DNA of 64,000 nucleotides, from positions 248,001 to 312,000 of the forward strand of contig NZ_JACOFU010000004.1 in the NCBI RefSeq assembly GCF_014284275.1, given 5' to 3'. Numbering within the stretch: the stretch's first letter is position 1; each line of letters starts with the position of its first letter. Positions 9,815 to 10,115 of this stretch are shown in pieces. The stretch comes from Affinundibacterium amnicola. GTDB taxonomy: Bacteria > Pseudomonadota > Gammaproteobacteria > Burkholderiales > Burkholderiaceae_D. The notes under the pieces were generated by a model. The model did no database searches. It was given only the letters and a program-made list of their open reading frames with translations, and was not told the origin of the DNA. Both the position numbers and the translations under genes were made by a program.

Positions 9815-9980
9815 AATACGAGGTCAATGCACGATTAAATGCACGCCATCAAGCAACTGTTCGGGCTTTAGATCAACGGTTGATATTGCATGCCAAATGC
9901 TTCTCCACGGGCTTGGTATCCCAAAGGGCGGACGGGCTATGCAATATCCTCCGAAAACTTTCCGAAACAACGGAAACTCA
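9815..9980 (-). ncRNA. Candidate IS110 bridge RNA
   Basis: On the minus strand, upstream of the transposase, the sequence folds by eye into the order expected of a bridge RNA. First is a 5' stem-loop (UUUCCG/CGGAAA, 9976-9959). Next is a target-binding loop closed by a 10-bp stem GATATTGCAT/ATGCAATATC plus GCC/GGC (9948-9882), with an apical UUGG-GAUA-CCAA hairpin. Last is a donor-binding loop closed by GAUCUAAA/UUUAAUC (9874-9833). The 5' side of the donor loop has ACAGUUGCUUG (9860-9850), identical over 11 nt to the rejoined element ends. The 3' side, GCGUGCA, can pair with TGTATGC of the other end using G-T wobbles. The target loop has CCCUU and GGAGAAG, matching the two sides of the interrupted REP site. 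Ends are approximate. Confidence 0.72.
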
Positions 9981-10002
9981 CCAACGAACTACCATTTTTC
10001 CC

Positions 10003-10063
10003 GCGGTAGTAGGTGCCTGCTCCAGTCGCGCTACGCACTCCTTACGCAGGCACCTACTACCGC
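10003..10063. repeat. 18-bp perfect inverted repeat in IS110 left end
   Basis: Arms GCGGTAGTAGGTGCCTGC (10003-10020) and its exact complement (10046-10063) around a 25-nt loop. It lies between the element boundary and the candidate bridge RNA. It could be part of the IS110 end (protein or RNA structure) or a nested host repeat. Confidence 0.8.
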
Positions 10064-10115
10064 AAAACCATACAACCAACTACGAGAACATACAATCTAT
10101 AAAACAGCATACAAG

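Follow-up and report, generated by a model that had tools for sequence, protein, structure and literature searches.

Bridge RNAs are established for insertion sequences of the IS110 family (PMC11208160, PMC11208158), and insertion of family members into REP elements has been described for IS621, ISPpu9, ISPpu10, ISPa11 and ISRm19 (PMC1525189). The same source gives an association with broken REPs for 6/6, 7/7, 7/7 and 4/4 counted copies of ISPa11, ISPpu9, ISPpu10 and ISRm19, respectively, and assigns ISPa11 to one fixed point in the REP (PMC1525189). The element analysed here lies in a stretch of 64,000 nucleotides from Affinundibacterium amnicola (the window). It is like IS621 of E. coli in its recombinase domains and catalytic residues, in a left end that carries a bridge RNA whose two loops are in register, and in its CT core, its REP target, an RNA 3' part that reaches the start-codon region and the layout of a predicted junction promoter, and it is unlike IS621 in its REP sequence and guides. 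It shares the combination of an IS110-family element and a REP with ISPa11, ISPpu9, ISPpu10 and ISRm19, which occur in other hosts and with other REP sequences. We put at roughly 0.94 the probability that the left end of this element encodes a bridge RNA of the IS621 type, which would direct recombinase-catalysed insertion into a REP at a CT core. The features of the sequence that point to this are the anatomy of the RNA, its IS621 register, covariation, the tracking of flanks by guides and repeated insertion at one REP position.

The element spans 1,335 bp (8781–10115, minus strand), with ends placed by comparison with relatives L004 to L007 and with element ends in a sister genome, G024. The core CT lies at 10115–10114 on the left and is repeated at 8780–8779 on the right (minus strand); CTT is common to both ends of the window element and CT to those of relatives with located ends, a set that excludes L068, whose end does not follow the motif and whose core may differ. 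The recombinase gene (8796–9800, minus strand) most likely starts, judging by alignment, with the ATGATG at 9800/9797 rather than with the listed TTG at 9827. This leaves non-coding ends of 315 bp on the left and 15 bp on the right, and a long left end with a short right end is the arrangement of the IS110 group. In the IS1111 group the long and short ends are arranged the opposite way. The product carries both PF01548 (RuvC-like DEDD) and PF02371 (transposase with catalytic serine), the pair of domains that marks the IS110 family, and it aligns with the recombinases of IS621 (PDB 8wt6, E 6.7e-30) and ISCro4 (PDB 9t56, E 1.4e-32), the latter also a homologue. By our own reading of the alignment, D14, E69, D111, D114 and S253 (P0004 numbering) are the counterparts of the IS621 DEDD residues and serine, the residue roles being those given for the IS621 recombinase (PMC11208158). 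Homologous recombinases are also encoded by plasmid copies annotated as ISEc32 (about 45.5–45.8% identity), one of which, L067, gives a bridge RNA match, a search for its right end being negative. The element is present as a single copy in its own genome. A scan of genome contigs yielded five relatives, of which L004, L005, L006 and L007 retain the left end (90%, 74%, 71% and 68% protein identity to the window recombinase, respectively), while L008 is a partial copy in which the left end and the guide are missing and the right flank, CTTATGCC, is not the REP of the window.

An earlier reading made from the sequence alone (the sequence-only reading) had proposed that the 315-bp left end folds into a 5' stem-loop, a target loop carried by a stem of 10 bp, and a donor loop. 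The reverse complement of 9801–10115 does fold stably (MFE −117.4 kcal/mol, z −4.45, with none of 100 shuffles as good), though much of this energy is supplied by a separate hairpin at 9999–10067 (−51.2 kcal/mol in an 86-nt piece). All three parts were recovered by folding and RNAalifold: a small 5' stem-loop with the sequence UUUCCG-UUGUUU-CGGAAA (9959–9976, minus strand), close to the target loop; the target-binding loop itself (9882–9948, minus strand, from the RNAalifold consensus); and the donor loop. The stem of the target loop consists of 10 bp (9948–9939/9891–9882), followed by a bulged A (9938) and three further pairs (GCC 9937–9935 with GGC 9894–9892).

The two-loop structure expected of an IS621-type bridge RNA is conserved in the left ends of relatives. 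With five left ends as input, RNAalifold predicts 50 pairs, 7/50 with changes on both sides. Across 50 left ends, pairing holds in 87.2% of cells and 40/42 pairs change on both sides; covariation there is 0.607 versus 0.185 when shuffled and at most 0.108 when slid, in an alignment that was fitted to the structure and is hence biased towards it. The target-loop helix (helix 1 of alignment A5) has changes on both sides in 13/13 pairs. The IS621 structure paper describes flipped A43, A67, A116 and A150 and syn G48, G72, G121 and G155 (PMC11208158), positions that we read as falling on columns 21, 46, 92 and 141, and 26, 51, 97 and 146, respectively, of alignment A3.

Two covariance models were used for searches. 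R1, built from five left ends, matched 4/369 genomes of the class, own genome included, and 19/23 collected sources; those 19 left ends were in turn the basis of R2, which excluded IS621 and matched 33/399 genomes of the order and 5/39 of the genus, own genome counted in each. The match in the window covers 9783–9951 (minus strand) at 194 bits with R1 and 147.7 bits with R2, scores that are not independent since both models include the window by construction. A covariance search was among the checks that the sequence-only reading had suggested, and it came out in its favour: R2 recovers the bridge RNA of IS621 at 64.1 bits, the next best stretch scoring 8.9. R2 also matched 50 of 51 sources (all except L016), many of them fetched because R1 or R2 had matched them. 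An Rfam search of the window returned no family at gathering score, and we know of no Rfam family for bridge RNAs. Going by IS621 numbering, or by the predicted closing stem, the 3' end of the RNA should reach about 9797–9791.

Both donor guides of the window copy match the junction of right and left element ends (RE-LE), as those of a bridge RNA do. The left donor guide ACAGUUGCU, ACAGUUG(CU) (9852–9860, minus strand), is identical at 9/9 positions to the right element end plus core. An 11-nt identity between donor loop and RE-LE junction, ACAGTTGCTTG when the ends are read side by side, had been pointed out before; it is real, but we take only nine of these nucleotides as guide because the last two junction bases are not conserved in relatives, being UG in the window and L004 and GG in L005, L006 and L007. 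The right donor guide AUUUGCAAG, AU-UU-G-CA(AG) (9809–9817, minus strand), pairs with the left element end CTTGTAT: AU and CAAG are the paired letters, opposite CTTG.AT, with a G facing T and two U left out of the pairing. Pairing between the 3' side of the donor loop and the other half of the junction had been foreseen, and it takes the form described for IS621, but the guide had been misplaced, and the edge proposed for the RNA at 9815 cuts the guide at 9817–9809, which overlaps the ribosome-binding region. The IS621 copy L120, included as a control, has nine right donor guide letters identical to AUUUGCAAG of the window, whereas its left donor guide is ACAGTATC as against ACAGUUGCU.

In the target loop, the right target guide GGAGA(AG) (9900–9906, minus strand) matches the insertion site, as that of a bridge RNA does, with 7/7 complementarity to the right flank CTTCTCC; for IS621 a right guide of 4, extendable to 7, is described (PMC11208160, PMC11208158). 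Next to it, the handshake guide CA (9898–9899, minus strand) is complementary to donor positions 6–7 (TG). The left target guide CCGCC(CU) (9925–9931, minus strand), placed by the register of IS621, matches its flank strictly over CCCU only, with G opposite T, an arrangement also present in IS621. Of nine positions, four match strictly and two by wobble, and the automatic search chose a misplaced stretch with 6/9. The earlier proposal that CCCUU on the 5' side of the target loop and GGAGAAG on its 3' side correspond in order to the two flanks is confirmed, the left fit being weaker than implied. No other part of the case is as weak in the window copy as the fit of the left target guide, which is effectively about 2 nt shorter than that of IS621.

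Read in the direction of the recombinase, the host DNA on the two sides joins into a split REP-like palindrome, CCACCCTCATCCCTAACC-CTTCTCCCGCTTGCGGGAGAAGGG, of which the left part (CCACCCTCATCCCTAACC-CT) lies at 10114–10133 and the right part (CTTCTCCCGCTTGCGGGAGAAGGG) at 8757–8780, both given as read on the transposase strand. The right flank is CTTCTCCC in the window, in L004 and at all six right ends in G024. In this sister genome a similar element is represented at contig edges by six right ends (93–96% DNA identity) and six left ends (94%); left and right ends are unlinked there and the guide sequence is absent from the assembly. The right flanks in G024 are CTTCTCCCGC in 6/6 cases and CC stands before 6/6 left ends, giving CCCTTGTATGCTG. 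The two REP kinds being about equally frequent in G024, insertion into one of them in six of six cases offers modest support for choice by the right guide: CCCTTCTCCCGC has 51, 13 and 28 strand matches in genomes G000, G006 and G024, respectively (some of the 28 beside inserted copies), and CCCCTCTCCCGC has 18, 12 and 23. Beyond CCCT, neither L004 nor the copy in G026 has a left flank that looks like REP, as would be expected if the left guide is short.

The occurrence of a sole copy in the genome, together with the weak fit of its left target guide, could be taken to mean that the element in the window has decayed and its bridge RNA has lost its function, a reading that would not conflict with the explanation preferred for the family as a whole. 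We consider this unlikely, given that the open frame is intact and has its catalytic residues, that guides and ends are intact, and that a close relative has its several ends in the sister genome G024.

Whether guides follow insertion sites was scored across relatives with the element ends located without the target guides, the left by CTT[GA]TAT and the right by the left donor guide (for L015 the letters of this guide were entered manually from the RNA of that element, the pattern having first matched elsewhere). The best match of the target-loop halves to an element's own flank was compared with that to all other flanks in 20,000 permutations; of 50 elements, a usable left flank was missing in 11 and a right flank in 22, elements without located ends being dropped. 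Left guides matched their own flank at 6.79 versus 5.08 of 9 strict positions (n=39) and right guides at 6.14 versus 4.35 of 7 (n=28), with 0/20,000 permutations in each test. When right-guide sites were required to end in AG the values were 6.14 versus 3.79 (0/20,000), over 23 different right flanks. The right guide fits 7/7 in 17/28 elements and 4–6 of 7 in 11/28; the left fits 9/9 in 9/39 and at least 7/9 in 21/39, L070 having 7/9 and the poor fits being L075 (3/9), L100 (4/9) and L078, L082, L085, L086 and L089 (5/9 each). Since the elements are related, these permutations overstate independence, and the tests were rerun with one element per 70%-identity cluster (12 clusters). The left test then gave 0/20,000 (n=9), with the own flank best or tied in 7/9, and the right test 29/20,000 (n=7), with the own flank best or tied in 5/7.

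The same pattern can be seen letter by letter. In the nearest clade GGAGAAG goes with CTTCTCC (window and L004) and GGGAGAG with CTCTCCC (L005, L007 and L077), the guide UGGAGAG of L006 fitting the flank CTCTCCC at 6/7, and related left ends with the differing right flanks CTTTTGC, CTCATGT, CTTTAAA and CTAACGT fit their own guides 7/7. The handshake pairing is also found, as judged on the target loop: with wobble allowed, position 1 fits in 25/28 (0/20,000 permutations) and position 2 in 19/28 (222/20,000), and the window fits at both. Two outcomes had been named in the sequence-only reading as counting against it, namely no conserved two-loop structure among related elements and guide loops in relatives that do not track their own insertion sites; the covariation and the permutation tests show the reverse on both points, and the interpretation as an IS621-type bridge RNA is supported. 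Four elements from one genus (L013, L014, L015 and L030) have closely similar scaffolds and different left target guides; the flank fits the element's own guide 9/9 in L014, L015 and L030 and 6/9 in L013.

A Shine-Dalgarno-like stretch, AAGGAGGGG, and the start codon (9798–9811, minus strand) overlap the right donor guide and the predicted donor-loop stem. As the 3' part of the RNA includes the ribosome-binding sequence and extends to the start codon, folding of the RNA may compete with translation, both in the window element and in IS621, where the right donor guide stops 12 nt before the annotated ATG. We discarded the idea that this overlap is novel, the IS621 copy having much the same layout. 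The presence of ribosome-binding sequence and start codon within the predicted donor-loop arm could also mean that the left end is a mere structured 5' untranslated leader limiting translation of the transposase, its loops resembling those of a bridge RNA by inheritance and guiding nothing, and transposase expression in ISPpu9 is reported to be regulated by two sRNAs and 5'-UTR structure (PMC8450116). We regard a leader of this sort as highly improbable, because the guide letters vary with insertion site across relatives, which a leader would not need, and the IS621 guide positions are in register; leader and guide roles may, however, coexist. It is more improbable still that the protein itself recognises the REP palindrome and so picks the target, the guide–flank matches being due to chance or shared ancestry, for although the relatives do have a common ancestry and the left guide match of the window is weak, tracking persists with one element per 70%-identity cluster on both sides, and related left ends with different right flanks each fit their own guide in full.

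Guidance by a bridge RNA would proceed as follows. The element would be excised as a circle, and transcription of the left end would start from a promoter that is restored where RE and LE meet. The predicted −35 of this promoter is TTGATT (8794–8799, minus strand) and the predicted −10 is TATGCT (10106–10111, minus strand), with a spacing of 17 nt across the junction; TTGA is found 18–20 nt ahead of the core in 23/28 right ends, and the sixth base of TATnnT is T in 35/41 left ends, TAT itself belonging to the search motif. The donor loop would pair with the RE-LE junction through ACAGUUGCU and AUUUGCAAG, and the target loop would use its short left guide, which ends in CCCU, and the 7-nt right guide GGAGAAG to pair with the REP-like palindrome of the host. 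In complex with this RNA, the DEDD/serine recombinase would join donor and target at the CT core, handshake pairing helping strand exchange at CT, and the outcome would be insertion into REPs of the CTTCTCCC kind, with position and orientation both fixed. The window copy would itself be active.

The part with the most claim to be unusual is a long leader hairpin of 69 nt with a 22-bp outer stem in the window (9999–10067, minus strand), which is an addition upstream relative to IS621 and occurs, within the clade, only in Oxalobacteraceae-type copies. It lies between junction and target loop in the window, L004, G024, G026 and L005, with an outer stem of about 17–22 bp. The hairpin loop is similar in these five copies, L004 having a 5-nt insertion; the stem in G024 has one interruption, and that of L005 is largely rewritten yet fully paired. 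The left ends of L006, L007 and L077 are too short to contain it. Among 43 genomes of the genus (E ≤ 0.001) the hairpin was found in G000, G006 and G026 and six times in G024, always beside left ends of the element, so that an independent mobile repeat is not supported. The exact loop pattern is absent from the viral contigs searched, and the window and L005 hairpins had no match among plasmids. A role as terminator was discarded, no T run being visible by eye after the hairpin on either strand. One possibility, which we hold to be rather unlikely, is that it forms an extra 5' module of the bridge RNA between junction promoter and target loop, acting as stabiliser, regulator or second recombinase contact; for IS621, an extra recombinase-contact module is not described in the portions of the two papers available to us (PMC11208160, PMC11208158).

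A full-text literature search for IS110 together with Undibacterium found no paper. We view the window element as a new, well-supported example of the known bridge RNAs rather than as a new type of system. Going by sequence, it indicates that bridge-RNA guidance would explain the settlement of IS110 elements in REPs in another bacterial group. The 50 related left ends hold natural guide–target pairs, 17 of them with perfect 7-nt right guides, and are a source of candidate programmable recombinases.

Two subtypes of the REP appear to differ beside the core, and it is likely that the right guide picks between them. The predicted target of the window element is CCCTTCTCC, and the CCCCTCTCC subtype is predicted to misfit the window guide and to fit the guide GGGAGAG of L005 and L007. 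At L007:2980–3200, a single REP-like stretch separates two related IS110 right ends in facing orientation; one adjoins CTCTCCC and the other CTTCTCCC, as if two elements whose right guides differ had used both subtypes. In the window, two REP palindromes flank a DUF559 gene (8315–8770) whose C-terminal codons run into one of them; a link between REPs and DUF559 was rejected, as only one of the two DUF559 genes in the genome is near REPs and the other is without a neighbour among the exact matches listed for the two REP patterns. On contigs C1, C4, C12, C27, C29 and C32 of G000, REP arms of the two subtypes often stand about 120–160 bp apart in a BIME-like arrangement.
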